64,000 bases of DNA from Ammonifex degensii KC4 (GCF_000024605.1 NC_013385.1:863501-927500); one strand, 5' to 3'. Counted from the stretch's first letter, positions 1-32,450 are shown. Numbers and translations are program-made. Notes: generated by a model not told the origin, from the sequence alone.

Positions 1-171
1 CCTCAGCCTCTGCCTTTCCTGTTGTACTTGTGGTACCACTTTTAGAAAAATGGGGGGAGCGCGAGGGGAAAGTCCACCCCCTCAATTCATTGAGGGGATA
101 CACGGACCCCCTCGCGGTATAACTTGCAGGTATAATGGCATAAAGGCCCAGGGAAAGGAGGTGAAACGTGA

Positions 172-1400
172 GTGCCCCTCGTCACCCTCAGAGCCCAGGT
201 TCACGCCGACCCCGAGACCCTGGCCGTCCTCAAGGACGCCATGTTTTGCGCCACCAAGGTCTACAACGGCCTCCTCTGGCACCTCCGGAAGGAGTACGAA
301 GAGACCGGGAAGGTGGACATATCCCGCAAAAACCTCAACCGCATCTTAAAAGAACTCCCCCGGGCGAAGGGCTACTACTCGATGTCCGTGCAGCTCACGC
401 GGGAAGAAGTGCGAGAAGCATATAAGTCTTTCTTTGCCCTCAAGAAAAAGGGCCTCACGCAGCACGAGGCTCCAGGATTTCGCCGGAAAGATTATCTCTC
501 CCCGCTCAAGTACGTCCAGAGCGGCTTCAAGGTGGAAGGAGATAAGGTCACGGTTTCTCTGGGCACCGGCCGGGAAGACGGGGTGAGGGAAGTTTCCTTC
601 CGCATTTCCCACCGTCCCGGCGTGGAGTACGAGCGGGTGCGGGAGCTCTCCATCACCTACGACAAGGTGTCCGGGCGAATCGAAGCCCGTCTGGTGGAGG
701 TGAAGGCGAACCCGTGTCCCGGCAGACTGAGGGTAGCCTTGGATCTGGGGGAGACCATCCTCATGGCGGCCGCCTTCGAGGACGGGACCGTGCTGCTCTA
801 CTCCGGCAGGTTTATCAAGTCGGTGAGGCGGTACTGGCAGAAGGTACGGGCAAGCCTCAAGCCAAACTCCCGCAGGTGGAGGGAGGTAGCCCACCGGGAA
901 AAGCTTCAGGTGGAGCACTTGCTCCACGTGGCCACGTCCCACTTCATAGAGGAGTGCGTGAGGCGGGGTGTGGGAGAGATAGCCATCGGGGCGATCACGG
1001 GCATCCGCGAGAGCATCGACTATGGTGATCGGCTCAACCAGAGGCTGCACGCCTGGCCGTACCGGAAGCTCATCAACATGCTCAAGTACAAGGGGGCGTT
1101 GGCGGGATCATGGCCCGGGACAATGTGGACGAGAGGAACACGTCTGTGCGCTGTCACGCCTGCGGGCGTGTACTGCCTTCCAACCGGAAACACAGGGGGC
1201 TTTACGTGTGTTCCTGTGGGTGGAAGGCGCAGGCGGATGTAAACGGTTCTTTGAACATTTTCGAGAGGGCGTACGAGGTATCTCCCGTCAAGGGGAGTAG
1301 TGGCCGTGTGGCGCGGCCTGTGGTCCTGTCGCTCCACCTGGGGTGGCACGGAGTCCACGAACCAAAGCGCAAGGAAAAGACCTTGCGTGCATCCCTTTAA
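172..1400 (+). pseudogene. tnpB: TnpB-family RNA-guided nuclease gene, broken by a one-base frameshift
   Basis: The first part (172 to about 1106) carries the N-terminal domain and the RuvC-I motif VALDLGE near residue 186. The reading frame that continues from 1110 carries the zinc ribbon (CHAC then CSCGWKA) and RuvC-III (QADVNG). The two halves join cleanly if one G is restored in the GGG run at 1104-1106, which would read AGIMARDNVDERNTS, a normal TnpB junction. At the usual RuvC-II glutamate position the sequence is AIGAITGIRES, with glycine in place of Glu. The start GTG/ATG region follows AAAGGAGGTGAAACG. As it stands the nuclease would lose its zinc ribbon and third catalytic Asp, so it is probably inactive unless translation shifts frame. 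Confidence 0.85.
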
Positions 1401-1428
1401 AGGGATGCCCCTCAATTCATTGAGGGGA
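1245..1428 (+). ncRNA. Candidate omega (reRNA) scaffold at the tnpB 3' end
   Basis: The 3' tail of tnpB and the element end are structured: GGCCGTGTGGCGCGGCC, CACCTGGGGTGG and GCATCCCTTTAAAGGGATGC can each fold as hairpins, followed by the end palindrome at 1409-1428. In TnpB elements the guide RNA scaffold covers exactly this right-end region, and the guide begins just outside it. The assignment is by position and structure only. Confidence 0.35.
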
Positions 1429-1494
1429 GGACGTCACGACTAGAAGTTCATGCTATAATGAAAGCAAGAACGTACTACACAGGGAGGGAAGGTT

Positions 1495-1701
1495 TTGAAA
1501 ACGAGGGAAAAGGTCAAGGCCGTGCAGGTGCGCTTGAGCGAGGAAGAATGGCGCTTCCTGCGCCGCCTGGCGGTCGACCTGGACACCACGGTGTCGGAAA
1601 TTATCCGCAGCTACATCGGCTACCTGCGGTGTGGGGGCAGGCCCGTCGGCCTCGTATCCGGAGAAGGACAGGAGAGGGACAATGCGGACGCTGAGCGTTG
1701 A
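1495..1701 (+). CDS. Ribbon-helix-helix (CopG/Arc-type) small protein
   Basis: A 68-residue protein with a TTG start at 1495, behind AGGGAGGGAAGG. The segment VQVRLSEEEWRFLRRLAVDLDTTVSEIIRSYI has the beta-strand, helix, turn, helix pattern of ribbon-helix-helix DNA-binding proteins, which act as dimers. Such proteins are often antitoxins or autoregulators. No toxin-like partner is visible: the 150 bases that follow contain only a 36-codon ORF (1682-1792) of no recognisable type. It lies just upstream of the MoxR gene and could regulate it; that is an inference from position. Confidence 0.7.
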   Translation: MKTREKVKAVQVRLSEEEWRFLRRLAVDLDTTVSEIIRSYIGYLRCGGRPVGLVSGEGQERDNADAER

Positions 1702-1851
1702 CTTCCACTATCTGACCGACCAGGTCCTGTCGCCCCTGACGCTGCGCCTAGGGCAAGGCTCGACGCCACAGTACGCGGGCTTGCCAGGTTGATTCGGAGC
1801 GTGAGCCTGAAGTAGCCGTTAAAGGTTTAAAAAGGAAAAGGAGGAAAAAGC

Positions 1852-2772
1852 GTGACTCGGGAAGAATGGCGCAGAGCTCTTGAGGGCGCTGGCTACATCC
1901 CTACCGAAGAAATATGCAGCGCTCTCTGCCTCGCGGAGGCCTTAAAAAAGCCCTTGCTGGTGGAAGGCCCTCCGGGGGCGGGTAAAACATACTTGGCAAA
2001 GGCTGCCGCTTCGGTGCTGGGGGCCGATGTGGTGCGGCTCCAGTGCTACGAAGGTATAGACGTAAGCCGCGCCGTGTACGAGTACAACTACGGCAAGCAG
2101 TTGCTCTACCTGAACGCCCTGCGCGACCGGGTCTCCCAGATGCTGAACGGCACGAAGAGCATGTCCGAGGCAGTGGCCGTCCTGGACAGGGAGGCCCCCT
2201 TCTGGGGCGACGAGTTTCTGGTGCGCAGGCCGCTGCTGCAGGCCCTGGCCCCGGAGGACGGGAGGAAGAAGGTCTTGCTGATCGACGAGGTGGACCGCGC
2301 CGACCGGGAGTTCGAGGCCTTGCTGCTCGAGGCTTTGTCGGAATGGGCCGTGACGATACCGGAGTACGGCAGGGTCGCTGCCGAAGAACCGCCCCTAACC
2401 GTCCTCACCTCCAACAGGACGCGGGACCTGTCGGACGCCCTGCGCAGGCGGTGCCTGTACCTCTGGCTGGACCTCCCGGACGCGGACCGGGAGGCGAGGA
2501 TAATCGAAGCGCAGGTCCCGGGGGCGAGCAGGGAGTTTGCGTTGAAGGTCGCCAGGGTCGTGCAGGAGTACCGGAAGATGTCCCCGAGGCATGTAGCCTC
2601 CGTGGCGGAGGCGGTAGAGCTGGCAGCAGCCCTTCTCGCCACGGCGGGCGAGGGCTTTACGCCCGAAGATGTGGGCGCGGCGGCGGCAGTCTTCGCCAAG
2701 CACAGGGACGATGTGAAGCTGGCGATCCGGGCCGCCGAGAGGGCTCTGGGGGGGAAGGGCGGTGCTAACTGA
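1852..2772 (+). CDS. MoxR-family AAA+ ATPase (CoxD-like)
   Basis: The 306-residue product has a Walker A motif GPPGAGKT at about residue 40, a Walker B LLIDEVDRAD at about residue 143, a sensor-1 TSN and arginines in the C-terminal lid, the layout of MoxR AAA+ proteins. MoxR ATPases usually work as chaperones that remodel a target together with a VWA protein. Here the next gene is such a VWA protein and overlaps it by 11 bases, so the two are translationally coupled. The GTG start follows AAAAGGAGG at good spacing. GC content is high compared with the priA-rsmB block. The target of the pair is unknown. Confidence 0.9.
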   Translation: MTREEWRRALEGAGYIPTEEICSALCLAEALKKPLLVEGPPGAGKTYLAKAAASVLGADVVRLQCYEGIDVSRAVYEYNYGKQLLYLNALRDRVSQMLNGTKSMSEAVAVLDREAPFWGDEFLVRRPLLQALAPEDGRKKVLLIDEVDRADREFEALLLEALSEWAVTIPEYGRVAAEEPPLTVLTSNRTRDLSDALRRRCLYLWLDLPDADREARIIEAQVPGASREFALKVARVVQEYRKMSPRHVASVAEAVELAAALLATAGEGFTPEDVGAAAAVFAKHRDDVKLAIRAAERALGGKGGAN

Positions 2773-4231
2773 CACGGCCCTGTCTTCTTCTCTTACCCGC
2801 TTTGCCGCCCGCCTCCGCGAGCGGGGCATGATGGTCAGCCCTGCCGAGGTGGCCGACGCGGTGGAGGCGGTAAGGAACCTGGTCCCGCTGTCCCTGAGGG
2901 AACTGAGAGGAATACTCCGCCCCTGCATGGCGAAGACGCCGGGGGACATAGCGGTGTTTGAGGATGTTTTCGACGAGTTTTTCCTGGGGGAGGAGGAAGT
3001 GATTGGCGCCGCGGCGGCGCTCGCCTGCCAGGCCAAGAGGGCGCGCGGGAGGGGCTGCCCCCCCGGTGGGGACACCGCCCAGGGAGCGGGAGACGGGGAG
3101 AGCCGCCCTGGGGGCGAGGCACAGGGGTGGAAAAAGGCCCTCCAGGAAGACCCGTCCGTACCCGATTCTGTAAGGAAGTTCGTGGCGGGCGACAGGCTGG
3201 GTGCGGCCGTCGCCCTGGCCCATTCCCCGCTGACGGAGGACGACAGAAGGGCGGTAGCAGACGCCGTCCTGAGGGCGGCTTCTTCGGGGGCCTTGGGCAG
3301 GGACGCCTTGGAGGAATTGACGGCGACTTTAAAGGAATTTGCGGAGCTCGCCGCGGCGGTCGAGCGCAGGCGCCGCAGGACCCCGGGTGACAAAAAGTTC
3401 CGCCCCCCGCTTCCGGCGGTGAGTCCGGCGAGGTCTCTTCCCGCAGGCGCGTGGGAGTGGGATGCCGGGCTGCCGGAGCACCTGCTCAGGGCCCGCCTGG
3501 AAGGACTGGACGCCCGCACCCTGGCCTGGCTGACAGGGGAGATAGAACGGGCGGCCGCGTCCCTGAGGCCGCTCCTGGAGCGGAGCTGCGGGGTGGTCCG
3601 GAGGAGGCTCGGCGTGGACTACAGGGAGACTATGAGGCTGAGCCTGGCCACCTTCGGCGAGCCGTTCCGCATCGCTTTCTCGGCGCGGCGCAGGAAGCTG
3701 CGGAGAATAGTCACCGTCTGCGACATCTCCGGCTCCGTAAAGAAGGTGGCGGGGCTGATGCTGGCCTTCATGTACGGCCTGCACCGGGCCTTCTCGGGCA
3801 GGGTCCGCCACTTCGTCTTCGTCTCGGAGGTGGACGAGGTAACCCCCTACTTCGCCTGCGACTCCTACGCAGAGTGCTTCGACCGCGTGACGACCTCCGC
3901 CGCGGTGGACTACTACGGCTACTCCGACTACGGCAAGGCGCTGACGCTCCTGTGGAAGAGGCATAGAGACGCCTTCGACCACGAGACGCTCGCCATATTC
4001 CTGGGGGACGCCCGGACGAACCGGAGGGATCCGAAGGCGGGTGTCCTGGCGGAGCTGGCCGCCAGGACGAGGAAGACCTTCTTCCTCAACCCTGAAGACC
4101 CTTCGAAGTGGGGGACGGGGGACTCCGTTGCCTTCATCTACCGGGAAGTGGTCGAGATGCGGGATGTCAGTACGCTGGAGCGCCTGGTGGCTTTTCTGAA
4201 GATGCTTCCCGGGATGGTGGTTGTGTGGTGA
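2762..4231 (+). CDS. VWA-domain protein (CoxE-like) partner of the MoxR ATPase
   Basis: A 489-residue protein. The N-terminal 200 residues are helical, with a charged Gly/Pro-rich stretch. The C-terminal half has a von Willebrand factor A domain with the metal-site motif CDISGS at about residue 321 and a later GDART, matching the DxSxS and later MIDAS positions. The pattern is that of CoxE/YehP-type proteins, which act with MoxR ATPases. The GTG start at 2762 lies inside the moxR-like gene, and the stop TGA overlaps the GTG start of the next gene (GTGA), so all three genes form one tight operon. No signal peptide is seen, so it is predicted to be cytoplasmic. Confidence 0.85.
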   Translation: MLTDTALSSSLTRFAARLRERGMMVSPAEVADAVEAVRNLVPLSLRELRGILRPCMAKTPGDIAVFEDVFDEFFLGEEEVIGAAAALACQAKRARGRGCPPGGDTAQGAGDGESRPGGEAQGWKKALQEDPSVPDSVRKFVAGDRLGAAVALAHSPLTEDDRRAVADAVLRAASSGALGRDALEELTATLKEFAELAAAVERRRRRTPGDKKFRPPLPAVSPARSLPAGAWEWDAGLPEHLLRARLEGLDARTLAWLTGEIERAAASLRPLLERSCGVVRRRLGVDYRETMRLSLATFGEPFRIAFSARRRKLRRIVTVCDISGSVKKVAGLMLAFMYGLHRAFSGRVRHFVFVSEVDEVTPYFACDSYAECFDRVTTSAAVDYYGYSDYGKALTLLWKRHRDAFDHETLAIFLGDARTNRRDPKAGVLAELAARTRKTFFLNPEDPSKWGTGDSVAFIYREVVEMRDVSTLERLVAFLKMLPGMVVVW

Positions 4232-6051
4232 AAGTGCTTCATCAGATGGGGGCTCGGGTGGTGGGGGCTCTGCTTGCGGGGCTTCAGGCGAAGGGGCTCT
4301 CCGTCCCGCCCGGGAGCGCCGGGAGGTTCCGCGTGTCGAAGAAAGGGAACCTCCTGCTGGACGAGAAGCTGCTTCTGGCTTCCGATACGGCCAGGACCCT
4401 TGGGTGCGAGACGCCGGAGGCCGTGCTGGAGCTCCTCCGCAGCTCGCTCTCGGACGAGGCCGCCTCCGAGATACACCAAGTGCTTTGCTCCCCGCCGGGG
4501 GGAAAGGAACCGCGGCAGATCACCGCCCTCGACTTCGTCGCGAAGCCCCCCGAAGAGCTTGCCGAGAAAATCTGGCCCGTGTTCGAGGCGAAGCATATGG
4601 CGCACTCCCAAGAGCTGGCTGCATATGCGGAGGAAGTCTTCCGCGACCTTCCCGCCGGGCCTCCGGAGAACGCGCGGGCGGTGGCGCGGGCGCGCTGCCG
4701 CCCCAAACCGGAGGACCTGACCTTCAGGTATGACGGGGCGGTCTGCTTGGCCGTGTGCTCGGCCTGCGGCTTCACGCTGGCGTTCTCCGCGTCCGTAGGG
4801 AGGCACCTTCCGGGCCACCCCAAGAACTCTTCGCTCGGCCAGGACAAAGACGAGCTGTCCGACCTGGCGGGCAAGGCTCTCTCGCGGAGGCTGGCAGAGG
4901 CCGGGCTGCCTGGCAAGCTGGAAGGGCTGGCCCGTGAGGTGAAGGCGGCGCTGGCGGAGAGAATATGCCTTCCGGAGGTCTACCGCTGGCTGAAGGTACT
5001 GGACTCGGTCGCGTCGGGCATCCAGAAAGGAAGCATCCGGTGGCAGGGTAGCGGGTGGGTCGTCGCTTCTTTTTCTCTCCCTTCGGCAGACCCCACCTAT
5101 CTTGTAGAGTACTTCGAACGGCGGACAAAAGAAGTCCTCTCGCTGCCGAGCACTCCCTTAGAGGGACTACGGGAAGTGTTGAGGCGGTTCTGGGAAGGGT
5201 CCGGTCGGAAGGTGTGGGAGAAGGCCGAAGCGCTGCATTCTGCCCTGTCGCCCATCATGAAGGCTCTGCCGGAGGTCCGCCGTTCTTACGAGAATATGCG
5301 CCGCTTTGCCGAAGCCCTCTCGGAGGGCAGGATCAGGGTGACCGGGGAAGGGCAGTGCTTCGTGGGAAACGAATGCCTCAAGCAGTTCGACGGGCAGACG
5401 CTCGCCAGGATTTTGGACAGGCTCTTTTCTGCCTTCGAACGGGCGGTCCAGCAGAACATGGCTTTCGGGCTGTCCGACGAGCAAGTGCCTGCCGAAATCC
5501 TGAACAGGCTTCTCCCGGCCCCCGGGCAGAAAGGCGGAGAAAAACTGGACAGAGAGGTCGTCTTGGAAGTACTCCGCCTGCTGGCCGCACGCCCGAAGAA
5601 GATGGGGGCGACGACGGTTGCCGCCGTGCTGGCTGGCAGCCGGGCCAAGAAAGTATCAGACCGCGGGTTTGACAAGCTACCTTCGTTTGGCCGCTTTAAG
5701 GGCCTGTATACGCAGCAGGAATTGGTCCGGGTCGTAGAGAGAATGGTTCGGGCGGGCCTCGTCGCCGAGACCTATGTAGGTGTCCACGGCCTGAGGGTGC
5801 TGTACCTCCCCAGAGAGGTGGAGAAGGCGCTGCTCTCCTCCCTCTCGTCGGAGGAAGGTACCCTGGAAGTAGAGGATGCGCGGGTGAAGCGGGCCGCGCG
5901 GGCAATACAGAAGCACAGCTGGGGCGAGCTTGCAGAAATGGCGCGGGACGGTTTCTTCCCGGCAGAAGCGGCGCTGGCGGCCGCAGCAGCGCTCTGGCCT
6001 TCAGGTAAGGCGCCGAAGCTCCTCAAAGAACTCCGCACACAAAAACTCTAG
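4228..6051 (+). CDS. Large protein with C2H2-like zinc finger and RQC-like winged helix, third gene of the MoxR-VWA operon
   Basis: A 607-residue protein; the GTG at 4228 overlaps the preceding stop, and longer upstream ORF extension is unlikely to be translated. Around residue 178 the spacing CSAC, 12 residues, HLPGH matches a C-x2-C-x12-H-x3-H zinc finger. Around residues 440-530 the order VLRLLAARPKK, VLAGSRAKKVSDRG, LPSFGRFKGLYTQQEL, VVERMVRAGLVAET strongly resembles the RQC winged helix of RecQ helicases, which binds DNA duplex ends and forks. No helicase motifs are present. The rest is helical and unrecognised. Together with MoxR and VWA partners this suggests a remodelling machine whose target is DNA-bound. 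Function is unknown; the domain calls are by eye. Confidence 0.65.
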   Translation: MKVLHQMGARVVGALLAGLQAKGLSVPPGSAGRFRVSKKGNLLLDEKLLLASDTARTLGCETPEAVLELLRSSLSDEAASEIHQVLCSPPGGKEPRQITALDFVAKPPEELAEKIWPVFEAKHMAHSQELAAYAEEVFRDLPAGPPENARAVARARCRPKPEDLTFRYDGAVCLAVCSACGFTLAFSASVGRHLPGHPKNSSLGQDKDELSDLAGKALSRRLAEAGLPGKLEGLAREVKAALAERICLPEVYRWLKVLDSVASGIQKGSIRWQGSGWVVASFSLPSADPTYLVEYFERRTKEVLSLPSTPLEGLREVLRRFWEGSGRKVWEKAEALHSALSPIMKALPEVRRSYENMRRFAEALSEGRIRVTGEGQCFVGNECLKQFDGQTLARILDRLFSAFERAVQQNMAFGLSDEQVPAEILNRLLPAPGQKGGEKLDREVVLEVLRLLAARPKKMGATTVAAVLAGSRAKKVSDRGFDKLPSFGRFKGLYTQQELVRVVERMVRAGLVAETYVGVHGLRVLYLPREVEKALLSSLSSEEGTLEVEDARVKRAARAIQKHSWGELAEMARDGFFPAEAALAAAAALWPSGKAPKLLKELRTQKL

Positions 6052-6110
6052 CAAAAAAAGTGTAGGGGGATGATGAACCGTGTCGGATAGGAAACGCGTG
6101 CGGGAGCATA

Positions 6111-6313
6111 ACGCTAAAGCAGGCTCTGAGATGGGCTCAGGCACGGAAGCTCCTTTGCTACAACCCGGCAGAAGGAATCCCCGCACCCCGGGGAGAAACT
6201 GAAGAAGTAACACCCTGGACGGATGAAGAGGCCGCCCGCTTCCTGGAGTACATTGCCGGATTGACAGCGGATTGACAACCGGAACCGAAAAGTCAGGTGG
6301 GAAGCAGGAGTGA
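6111..6313 (+). pseudogene. Tyrosine integrase relic with a large internal deletion
   Basis: Frame 1 reads LKQALRWAQARKLLCYNPAEGIPAPRGETEE...WTDEEAARFLEYIA (6111 to about 6256), which lines up almost residue by residue with the core-binding domain end of the integrase at 31470-32450 (LRRALRWARRRKLLSHDP, WTEEEARRFLEHLE). It then passes directly, in another frame, to RIDSGLTTGTEKSGGKQE and a stop at 6313, matching the last residues of the same integrase (RIDRRLTAATGKPDGERV). The whole catalytic domain is therefore missing. It marks the right edge of the MoxR-VWA island as a decayed integration. Confidence 0.8.
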
Positions 6314-6337
6314 CGCTCCCGGGCAATTTGATCAAAG

Positions 6338-8551
6338 ATGGTTGAACAGGGAGAAAAAGTGGTTCAGGTGGCGGTGGCCTTGCCCTTGCCGCCGGGAAAA
6401 GAAGTTTACTCCTACCGCCTACCCCCGCAGCTGGCGGAAAAGGTGATCCCGGGCGCGCGGGTAGTGGTTCCCTTCCGTGGGAGACCGGTGGTAGGGGTAG
6501 TGGTCGAACTAGAGGAAGAGATACCGGAAGGGGTAAAGGAGCTCAAACCGATAATCAGAGTGGAGGAGGCGAAGCCCCTTCCCCCTAAGCTTCTGCGGTT
6601 GGGGGAATGGCTGGCCGAGCGCTACCTCTGCTCTTTGGGTGAGGCTTTGCTGGCTCTTACGGCGCCCCCGGGAGAGAAAGAGGAGTATTACTTTCCCGCT
6701 GAGGACCGGGATCTGGAAGAGACCATCGAGGCTTTATCACGCCGTTTCCCTGCCCAGGCCCGGGCCTTGGCGGTGGTAGTGGCCTTCCCCGGTATCGATC
6801 GTTTGTCCCTTTTGCGGGAGGCCGGGGTGAAGGCGCAAACCTTAGACGCCCTCTGGCGCAAGGGTCTAGTCCGGAAAGAAAAGGCTTCGTTTAAAGCCCT
6901 ACCTTTTCCCTTCACTCCTGCAGAAACTGGCCTTTCTTTGACTCCGGCCCAAGCCAAAGCACTTTCGCGCGTGGAAGAAGCTTTGAACCGTAAGACACCT
7001 GCAGTCCTGCTGCTGCACGGGGTCACTGGCAGTGGCAAGACAGAGGTTTACCTGCGGGCGGCTTCCCTGACTTTAGCACAAGGGCGTCAGGTAATAGTGC
7101 TGGTGCCGGAGATAGTTCTAGCCTACCAACTGGTGGAGCAATTTCGTTCTCGCTTCGGAGACCGGGTGGCGGTATTGCACAGCGCGCTGGGGGAACGAGA
7201 AAGGGGTACCTCCTGGCAGCGGGTGGAGCGAGGAGAGGCGCCGGTAGTGATAGGAGCCCGCTCGGCCGTTTTTGCTCCCGTTTCTCGCCTGGGCCTTATC
7301 GTGCTGGACGAGGAACACGAGCCTGCTTATAAGCAGGAGCAGGTGCCCCGCTATCATGCCCGGGAGGTGGCGCTGGCCCGGGCGGCCCAGGACGGGGCGG
7401 TGGTGCTGCTGGGAAGCGCTACTCCCTCCTTAGAGACCTACGCGCGGGCTCTAGCCGGGCATTACGAACTTTTAGAGCTTCCCCAGCGGGTGGACGGGAG
7501 CCCCTTGCCCCAAGTACGTCTGGTCGACCTGCGCGAGGAGTACCGCCGGGGGATGACCGGTCTTTTCAGCCGGTTTCTCTTGAAGCGCATAAAGGAAAAG
7601 CTCAGGCTCGGGGAGCAGGTGATTCTTTTTCTCAACCGGCGGGGGTTTGCCGCCTTTGTCCTCTGCCGCTCTTGCGGCCGCATCCTGCGCTGCCCGCACT
7701 GCGACATTGCCCTTACTTTTTACCAGCCGGATCTGCTGCTGTGCCACTACTGCCACTACCGGATCCGTCGGCAGAAGCTTTTCTGTCCTTACTGCGGCAA
7801 GGGAGAACTGGAGCTTTATGGGGCGGGCACGCAGCGCCTGGAGGCAGAAGTCAAATCCCTCTTTCCGGAGGCGCGGGTAGCTCGGCTGGATGCAGAGACT
7901 ACTTCCCGGCGCGGCAGCCACGAGGCCATCCTCTCGGCCGTCGCGCGCCGGGAAGTAGATATTCTCATCGGCACCCAGATGGTGGCTAAGGGGCTCGACC
8001 TGCCCGGAGTCACCCTGGTGGGAGTGGTGAACGCCGACGTCACCTTAACCTTACCTGACTTCCGTGCGGCGGAGCGCACTTTCCAGTTGCTCTACCAGGT
8101 GGCCGGACGGGCCGGACGCGGAGGTACGCCGGGAGAGGTAGTCATCCAGTCGCACTGTCCTGAGCATTACGCCATTTACCTGAGCGCCCGGCAAGATTTC
8201 TCTACCTTTGCCCGCCGGGAGTTGGCCCTCCGCCGGCGCTTCGAGTATCCTCCTTTCTCCCACCTGGCGCGGGTGGTCTTCACCGGGGCGGCGGAAAATA
8301 AGGTGAGGGAGCGGGCCCTGCGCTTCCGGGAGTTACTCTTGGCCGAGGCGGGGGAGGAAATTACCGTGTTAGGTCCGGCCCCCTGTCCGCTGGGAAAGTT
8401 GAAAGGTTTTTGGCGGTGGCATATCATTCTGAAAGGAAGGAAAGCCAAGCCTCTGCGGGAAATATTAAGGGAAACGGTAGAACAGGCAAAGCGCAAAGCA
8501 GGAGCCGAGGTGAAAATAGCACTAGACATCGATCCCCTGAGCATGCTCTGA
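6338..8551 (+). CDS. priA: Primosomal protein N' (replication restart helicase PriA)
   Basis: A 737-residue superfamily 2 helicase that reloads the replisome at stalled forks. Visible motifs are Walker [12 protein letters not shown] near residue 227, [10 protein letters not shown] near 324, a zinc-binding insert with four CxxC pairs (CRSC, CPHC, CHYC, CPYC) at about 442-487, and the late helicase motifs [10 protein letters not shown] and QVAGRAGRG. The length is typical. It begins the priA-def-fmt-rsmB block, a common order in Firmicutes. The ATG at 6338 is only about 25 bases after the integrase relic, so the ancestral promoter region may have been replaced. Confidence 0.97.
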
Positions 8552-8564
8552 GGAGGTTTTGCTT

Positions 8565-9029
8565 TTGGCCGTAAGGAAAATCGTCACCTTGGGGGACTCA
8601 GGAGACAAAGTACTCCGGGAGAAGGCCCAGCCGGTGGACAAGATCACCCCTCAGATCCAGAAACTGATCCGCGATATGACCGAGACTATGTACCGGGCTC
8701 AAGGGGTGGGGCTTGCTGCCCCGCAGGTAGGGGTCTCTTTACGCGTTATAGTGGTGGACACCGGTTCCAATCTCTATCAACTCATAAACCCGGAGATAGT
8801 AGCGAGGGAAGGGGAAGAGAAGGGGCGGGAAGGGTGTCTTAGCATTCCCGGCGTCTGGGGGGAAGTGGTGCGGGCGGCTTCAGTGCTGGTCCGGGCCTTG
8901 ACTCCCGAGGGTAGAGAAGTAAGCATTGAAGCTGATGGGCTTCTGGCCCGGGCCCTTCAGCACGAGATAGACCATTTGGACGGCATTCTTTTTATTGACC
9001 GGGCCGAAAAAGTTTACGAGGGGCAATGA
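8565..9029 (+). CDS. def: Peptide deformylase
   Basis: This iron or zinc hydrolase removes the formyl group from the N-terminal methionine of new proteins. All three family motifs are present: GLAAPQVG (about residue 48), EGCLSIPG (about 89) and QHEIDHLDG (about 131), which supply the metal-binding Cys and two His and the catalytic Glu. I chose the TTG at 8565 because AGGAGG at 8551-8556 lies 8 bases upstream; the in-frame TTG at 8559 is too close. It sits between priA and fmt, whose product makes the formyl group that this enzyme removes. Confidence 0.95.
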
Positions 9030-31469: not shown

Positions 31470-32450
31470 GTGGCCGGGCTCCTGGACGCCTGGCTGGAGG
31501 CCCACGCGCGCACCTGGCGCCCCAGCACCCTGGCGAACCGGCGAAAGGTCGCCGGGGTGTGGGCGGAGCTGATAGGCCACCTGGAGGTGGAGAGGCTCAC
31601 CCCGGCCGACGTGGAGCTAGCCCTGGCGAGGCTGGGGGAGAGGGTGAAGCCCTCCTCCGCCCGCGAGTACTACGACTGCCTGAGGCGGGCGCTGAGGTGG
31701 GCCAGGAGGAGGAAGCTGCTCTCCCACGACCCGACGGAGGGGGTGCCCGCGCCGAGGAGGGAGACCAGGGAGGTCGAGCCGTGGACGGAGGAGGAGGCGA
31801 GGCGCTTCCTGGAGCACCTGGAGGGGGCCCGGGAGAGGAAGGCCTACAGGGCGCTCTTCCGGCTGCTGCTGGCGACCGGGATGAGGCTCGGTGAGGCGCA
31901 GGCCCTGAGGTGGGAGGACGTGGACTTCGGGAGGAGAGAGGTCCGCGTCCGGCGCACGTACTCCCAGCCCGGGAGGTGCTTCCACGAGCCGAAGACCAGA
32001 AAGGCCAGGCGCGGGATACCCGTGGACGCCGTGACCCTGGCGTGGCTCAGGGAGTGGAGGAAGGAGCAGCTGGAGGAGAGGCTGAGGGCGGGGGAGAGGT
32101 GGGCCGACCGCGAGGGCCTGGTCTTCACCACCGAGGAGGGGAAGCCGGTGCCGCGGTCCACGGTCTGGTACGCCTTCGAGAGGCTGTGCCGGGGGGCGGG
32201 AGTGAGGAGGATAAGGGTGCACGACCTGAGGCACACCCACGCGAGCCTGCTCCTGAAGCGGGACGTGCACCCGAAGGTGGTGCAGGAGAGGCTGGGCCAC
32301 GCCAGCGTGAAGACCACGCTGGACACCTACTCGCACCTCCTGCCCGGCGTCCGGGAGCGGGCGGTCGAGGCGGTCGAGGAGGCGCTGGACCGCCGGATTG
32401 ACAGGAGATTGACGGCCGCGACCGGAAAGCCGGACGGGGAGCGGGTTTGA
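31470..32450 (+). CDS. int: Tyrosine integrase, core-binding and catalytic part (split gene)
   Basis: 326 residues from GTG 31470, which may be an internal start. The core-binding domain covers about residues 1-90. The catalytic domain has Arg in ATGMRLGEALRW-like ATGMRLGEAQALRWED, then HDLRHTHASLLL and LGHASVKTTLDTYSHLLPG with the Tyr nucleophile, so all catalytic residues (R, K region, HxxR, H, Y) are present. No ribosome site precedes GTG 31470, so a functional enzyme probably needs -1 frameshifting or represents a pseudogene or sequencing error. The gene ends 17 bases before attR. Confidence 0.85.
   Translation: MAGLLDAWLEAHARTWRPSTLANRRKVAGVWAELIGHLEVERLTPADVELALARLGERVKPSSAREYYDCLRRALRWARRRKLLSHDPTEGVPAPRRETREVEPWTEEEARRFLEHLEGARERKAYRALFRLLLATGMRLGEAQALRWEDVDFGRREVRVRRTYSQPGRCFHEPKTRKARRGIPVDAVTLAWLREWRKEQLEERLRAGERWADREGLVFTTEEGKPVPRSTVWYAFERLCRGAGVRRIRVHDLRHTHASLLLKRDVHPKVVQERLGHASVKTTLDTYSHLLPGVRERAVEAVEEALDRRIDRRLTAATGKPDGERV
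32394..32414. repeat. Pair of GATTGAC repeats near attR
   Basis: CGGATTGACA (32394-32403) and GAGATTGACG (32405-32414), 11 bases apart, inside the end of the integrase gene. Similar pairs lie near attL (20622-20643) and in the integrase relic (6257-6277). They are candidate arm-type integrase sites, although homology of integrase tails alone could explain two of the three. Confidence 0.4.

Follow-up and report, generated by a model that had tools for sequence, protein, structure and literature searches.

The Locus and Its Mobile Setting

The window analysed here, a 64,000-nucleotide stretch of the Ammonifex degensii KC4 genome (NC_013385.1:863501-927500), contains near its beginning an operon-like cluster of three plus-strand genes, hereafter the triad, which extends from position 1852 to position 6051. 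Its members are a MoxR-type AAA+ ATPase of 306 aa (1852-2772; Pfam AAA_5, E 9.9e-13), a CoxE-type VWA protein of 489 aa (2762-4231; Pfam VWA_CoxE, E 6.5e-34) and a third protein of 607 aa with an RQC winged helix (4228-6051; Pfam RQC PF09382, E 3.9e-9). The tight coupling described in the initial annotation was recovered in every detail, as the MoxR and VWA reading frames overlap by 11 bases, the VWA and third frames overlap by 4 bases (GTGA), and the third ORF has the 607 residues that had been given for it. The ATPase carries a Walker A motif (GPPGAGKT), a Walker B motif (VLLIDE), a TSN sensor and RRRC, while the VWA protein has the MIDAS sequence DISGS at residues 321-325 and the second aspartate at 416; an AAA_5 ATPase with both Walker motifs thus adjoins a VWA_CoxE protein in which the two MIDAS aspartates are present, the combination taken here to define a MoxR-VWA pair. 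NCBIfam places MadB (257 bits against a curated cut-off of 475) and MadC (103 bits against 600) as the best matches, and membership of either family was rejected, since both scores lie far under their cut-offs. Upstream of the triad, a plausible ORF for the ribbon-helix-helix protein reported earlier does exist (68 aa, plus strand, 1495-1701), but its assignment is less secure than had been stated, as the match to Pfam RHH_1 (E 0.016) misses the cut-off. No counterpart was seen among the predicted genes adjoining the other triads described below, and this ORF therefore probably lies outside the unit.

The triad lies within an insert of 10,192 bases (10.2 kb) between coaBC and priA, which begins 3.86 kb upstream of the window and occupies window positions 1-6332. 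The congener G001 has an empty site in which coaBC and priA are adjacent, the flanks adjoining at L109 11753/11755. On its minus strand the insert encodes a polysaccharide deacetylase, a family 2 glycosyltransferase, a DivIVA-like gene and a TPR gene, and the remainder comprises a TnpB-like gene, the ribbon-helix-helix ORF, the triad and an integrase relic. The TnpB-like gene (172-1400, plus strand) is split between two frames, with the OrfB core at 172-1242 (Pfam OrfB_IS605, E 1.3e-10) and a TNB domain within 1110-1400 (Cas12f1-like_TNB, E 1.6e-11). The relic, at 6093-6263 on the plus strand, comprises the end of the core-binding domain and the start of the catalytic domain of a tyrosine integrase; it shares 71% identity over 48 residues with a frame of 393 aa located elsewhere in the same genome, and 65% identity with an intact integrase at window 31470-32450, which bears out the earlier proposal that an integrase relic bounds the triad. 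Third-position GC is 0.77-0.84 in the triad and 0.68 in priA, an alien composition. Taken together, the empty site in the congener, the split TnpB-like gene, the integrase relic and the third-position GC of the triad indicate that the decayed mobile island proposed in the initial annotation is real, as is its decay. No direct repeats longer than 9 bases were found at the insert ends, and an Rfam scan of window 1-9000 gave no match.

Several other traces of mobile DNA were observed in and around the window. The TnpB-like gene is bracketed by two identical 20-base near-palindromes, CCCCTCAATTCATTGAGGGG, at window 78-97 and 1408-1427, where the chance expectation is none, and these copies look like the end hairpins of an IS200/IS605-type element. 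The intact tyrosine integrase at 31470-32450 belongs to the same family as the relic by the triad, and another integrative element is therefore probably present within the window. A second insert of about 3.2 kb, also missing from G001, lies upstream (L026 6984-10205, window -8518 to -5297) and carries two IscB-like genes (RRXRR plus HNH); IscB-like sequence was also seen by eye in the triad-bearing element of genome G475 (L112 12167-13309) and upstream of the triad copy in genome G016 (L099 502-897). Some 30 kb upstream of the window, at 831382-836243 of contig 1 (G000), two type IV coupling protein matches accompany an actin-like gene, and this region is probably a further conjugative element in the same genome.

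The RQC-Containing Third Protein

The third protein consists of an N-terminal alpha/beta-hairpin region (residues 1-416), an RQC winged helix (437-541) and a short C-terminal helical tail. An RQC winged helix unaccompanied by a helicase had been proposed for it from the sequence, and both halves of that description hold. The Pfam RQC match covers residues 454-524 with 36.8 bits against a gathering score of 23, and a profile built from four members of the family matches the RecQ structure 4tmu (E 1.5e-6). In the AlphaFold model (mean pLDDT 81.5) residues 437-541 form a winged helix, for which a fold search recovered as best matches the RQC domains of RecQ (4q48; Z 12.8, rmsd 2.4, 97 aligned) and WRN (3aaf; Z 12.7, rmsd 2.4, 102 aligned), the RQC matches as a group spanning Z 10-13 and winged-helix regulators of the MarR, ArsR and PadR types ranking next at Z 9-10. 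Pfam detects no helicase family in the protein, its sequence holds no Walker A motif, and the SF2 motor domains present in RecQ helicase were not found; profile and fold evidence for the RQC domain, together with the absence of helicase family and Walker A, therefore make "RQC without helicase" the correct description. The C2H2-like finger that had also been suggested did not survive, as no Pfam zinc-finger model passes its cut-off and the CxxC...HxxxxH pattern is not conserved: the next relatives keep the cysteine half only, none of the other members has the HxxxxH half, and in one of them the cysteines are missing as well. For residues 1-416, fold searches gave no clear solved relative (Foldseek E 1 or worse; VIA at best Z 7.6, to helical bundles), and one hhalign comparison (6.7e-5) points to a weak internal duplication within part of it. 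Searches of phage, plasmid and viral-contig collections with the third protein returned no relatives.

Conservation and Genomic Company

A survey of gene neighbourhoods for conserved triads, as proposed in the initial annotation, yielded four complete copies in three genomes and a fifth copy cut by a contig end. The third protein was found in G055 by a search of related genomes, and G475 was added by a sample of the phylum. G055 holds two triads about 10 kb apart, one of them ordered MoxR-RQC-VWA, while in G016 the contig ends after the MoxR-VWA pair, before a third gene could begin. The VWA profile was positive in only 3 of the 113 genomes of the class and in 2 of the 398 Bacillota species sampled. 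Full-length triad members are separated from all other proteins by their HMM scores (559-615 bits against at most 299 for MoxR, 781-867 bits against at most 192 for VWA), and no RQC protein was found at any of 43 other VWA loci, some of which are cut by contig ends. The other three full-length triad MoxRs share 58-76% identity with that of the window; the Walker and sensor residues are invariant among the triad members, as are both MIDAS aspartates in an alignment of four triad VWA proteins. In trees, the five triad MoxRs form one clade and the five triad VWAs another, each with a support of 100/100, and some 40 other pairs fall outside. A profile scan of genome contigs with the VWA alignment gave two loci, L094 and L093, the latter a generic MoxR-VWA pair, and viral contigs and phage records yielded no relatives. 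The MoxR-VWA-RQC triad is a real, rare three-gene system that is inherited as a unit.

The surroundings of the triads in G475 and G055 can be read as putative conjugative-type elements. In G475, the gene of a TraG-type coupling protein directly follows the triad, which is preceded by genes for a DUF3854 primase-like protein, a DnaN clamp, a PD-(D/E)XK (Cas4-like) nuclease, a dNMP kinase and a nucleotidase, with an RDF-like protein, RNase H, an SbcC-like ATPase (recognised by eye), ParB and a tyrosine integrase further upstream. The G055 region encodes SSB, a PD-(D/E)XK nuclease, a DUF3854 primase, a DnaN clamp, an SbcC-like ATPase, DnaB_2 and IstB/DnaC-like proteins, as well as an actin-like protein, a DUF6094 methyltransferase with an SNF2-type helicase, a serine recombinase and a coupling protein, the last some 35 kb from the second triad. 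Direct comparison established that nuclease, primase and clamp are homologous between the two elements, and the SbcC-like ATPase and TraG-type coupling protein likewise occur in both. In the two host elements viewed, the conserved company of the triad is DNA metabolism, namely replication, recombination and transfer, and not defence.

Both elements also hold a second, different pair of MoxR/CobS-like and VWA genes. In G055 (L111 2029-5936) the gene of a CobS-like AAA protein overlaps that of an 825-aa VWA protein with an N-terminal HEAGH metallopeptidase-like motif, a pair resembling the MoxR-vWA-peptidase pair of jumbo phages (PMC7824862). G475 encodes a RavA-like AAA ATPase (L116 17380-18489; PHROG ATPase, 273 bits), with a VWA_2 protein (L117 1428-2909) encoded a few kb downstream of it; the two appear to form a second MoxR-VWA-like pair in this triad-bearing element.

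Possible Functions of the Triad

The initial annotation had left a choice between a defence and a DNA-processing role, and the results fall on the side of the latter. PADLOC gave no convincing match: the MoxR protein obtained weak generic AAA matches (best E 1.6e-5), the VWA protein none, and the RQC protein only matches to DpdF, all of them within the RQC region or its immediate flank. When ten genes of the elements were submitted to PADLOC, a type II restriction-modification pair was detected in G055, about 40 kb away on the outer margin of the stretch fetched, and was rejected as a triad-linked defence system. The occurrence of the three genes beside DNA-replication and transfer genes in other mobile elements points to a tool with which the element handles its DNA rather than to an anti-phage system, and the RQC partner, the mobile island and the DNA-metabolism neighbours all agree with a possible role in DNA processing.

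It is nonetheless conceivable, though in our view unlikely, that the triad is a conflict or anti-phage system, a fifth MoxR-vWA ternary class in which the RQC protein would sense DNA structures of an invader and MoxR-VWA would gate the response. Four such ternary classes, each set by its third component, have been proposed as conflict systems (PMC7159879), mobile elements such as those bearing the triad often carry defence cargo, and both the weak DpdF (Dpd system) matches and the restriction-modification pair could be read in the same direction. However, no effector, nuclease, toxin or EAD-type domain was recognised in the three proteins by Pfam, PADLOC or NCBIfam, the DpdF similarity stops at the near flank of the RQC region, the neighbours common to the triads belong to replication and transfer, and searches with the third protein in phage, plasmid and viral collections found no copy. 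We give a similarly low probability to a chaperone for building the transfer or replication apparatus of the element, in which the RQC domain would merely place the chaperone on DNA. MoxR-vWA pairs have been proposed to act in the assembly of jumbo-phage virions, and an archaeal virus reportedly requires such a pair to assemble its tail (PMC7824862); the coupling-protein gene next to the G475 triad, together with the second MoxR-VWA pair in both host elements, would suit such a chaperone. It leaves a dedicated DNA-binding subunit unexplained, however, and the distance of the G055 coupling protein from the second triad speaks against it.

Two further explanations appear far less probable. Insertion of a metal cofactor or maturation of an enzyme, as by CoxDE and other dehydrogenase-adjacent MoxR-VWA pairs, is suggested by the CoxE-like nature of the VWA protein, by MadB and MadC being the best NCBIfam matches, and by related plasmid pairs that adjoin CO dehydrogenase or methanol dehydrogenase genes. 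Against this very doubtful role stand the scores far below the MadB and MadC cut-offs, the separation of the triad clade from all other pairs and the DNA-binding-type protein as invariable partner; moreover, no enzyme gene that would require maturation travels with the triad, so that the metabolic association which would have spoken against the initial annotation was not encountered. The proximity of MarR, ArsR and PadR folds in the search might suggest that the RQC protein chiefly regulates transcription under the control of MoxR-VWA; this seems highly improbable, as the RQC matches rank above those folds and no inducer-binding domain was recognised in a protein as long as 607 residues.

We infer the function of the triad from protein families, gene linkage, domain identity, conservation and context, and on these grounds a DNA-directed MoxR-VWA remodelling role inside a family of conjugative-type mobile elements has, in our estimation, about an even chance of being correct. 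An RQC domain without a motor, invariant catalytic and MIDAS residues and shared element genes are among the findings that support this DNA-directed role. Against it, RQC-like wings can also bind DNA in a purely regulatory capacity, and adjacency to replication genes is in itself no proof of a function in replication. Judging by their families, MoxR subunits would form an AAA+ ring on which the VWA adaptor would dock, and the MIDAS metal site could engage an acidic group, either on a client or on the third protein. The RQC wing of the third protein is predicted to grip branched, forked or end-containing DNA, while its long N-terminal region may hold the client, and ATP hydrolysis would then pull apart or assemble a protein complex on this DNA while the element replicates, recombines or transfers. 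The triad in the window looks intact but stranded, because its element has decayed, and it has no element left to serve.

MoxR-VWA machines are widespread and their clients are mostly not known, while the remodelling of nucleoprotein complexes is otherwise known for other AAA+ proteins. If the remodelling role is true, a built-in subunit that binds DNA structures would tie MoxR-VWA motors to nucleoprotein remodelling, and might account for the presence of several MoxR-VWA pairs on conjugative elements. As a small putative three-protein complex from a host whose genome suggests probable thermophily, the triad should suit biochemistry.

Comparison with Known Systems

Adjacent and overlapping genes for MoxR and a CoxE-type VWA protein are shared by the triad with CoxD-CoxE, MadB-MadC and RavA-ViaA, which, in contrast, are two-gene units located near the enzyme or complex to be matured, whereas the triad has a DNA-binding-type partner and forms a clade apart from the sampled MoxR-VWA pairs (100/100). 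The MoxR-vWA chaperone pairs that occur in jumbo phages and in Acidianus two-tailed virus (PMC7824862) are likewise MoxR-VWA machines on mobile elements, but an RQC partner is not mentioned for them, and the triad VWA protein has no peptidase domain. The third protein shares its RQC winged helix with RecQ, WRN and BLM, and its arrangement, with the RQC domain at the C-terminus and no helicase, with NCBIfam RQC-minor-2; it falls far under the cut-offs of RQC-minor-1 and RQC-minor-2, and no MoxR-VWA genes were present in the stretch fetched around one RQC-minor-2 gene scoring over the cut-off. A search of the open-licence literature found no paper in which MoxR and "RQC domain" appear together.

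The MoxR-vWA ternary systems, proposed as conflict systems and comprising four classes with a VMAP, iSTAND, FtsH or beta-propeller third component (PMC7159879), likewise combine a MoxR AAA+ protein with a VWA protein that has the two MIDAS aspartates, and their operon too includes a third gene that is conserved. Unlike them, the triad has an RQC winged-helix protein as third component, lies among the DNA-metabolism genes of mobile elements and has no effector module; no VMAP, STAND, FtsH or propeller domain was matched in it by Pfam, for which a very distant VMAP kinship would be beyond reach. Together with the phage MoxR-vWA chaperones, these four classes are the nearest described systems; the classes would match the triad in layout and differ from it in the third component and in effectors. 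We tentatively suggest, at somewhat less than even confidence, that the triad may represent a new MoxR-VWA ternary class, the first with a third subunit that recognises DNA structure through an RQC domain, which would take apart or load protein complexes where mobile-element DNA forks or ends.
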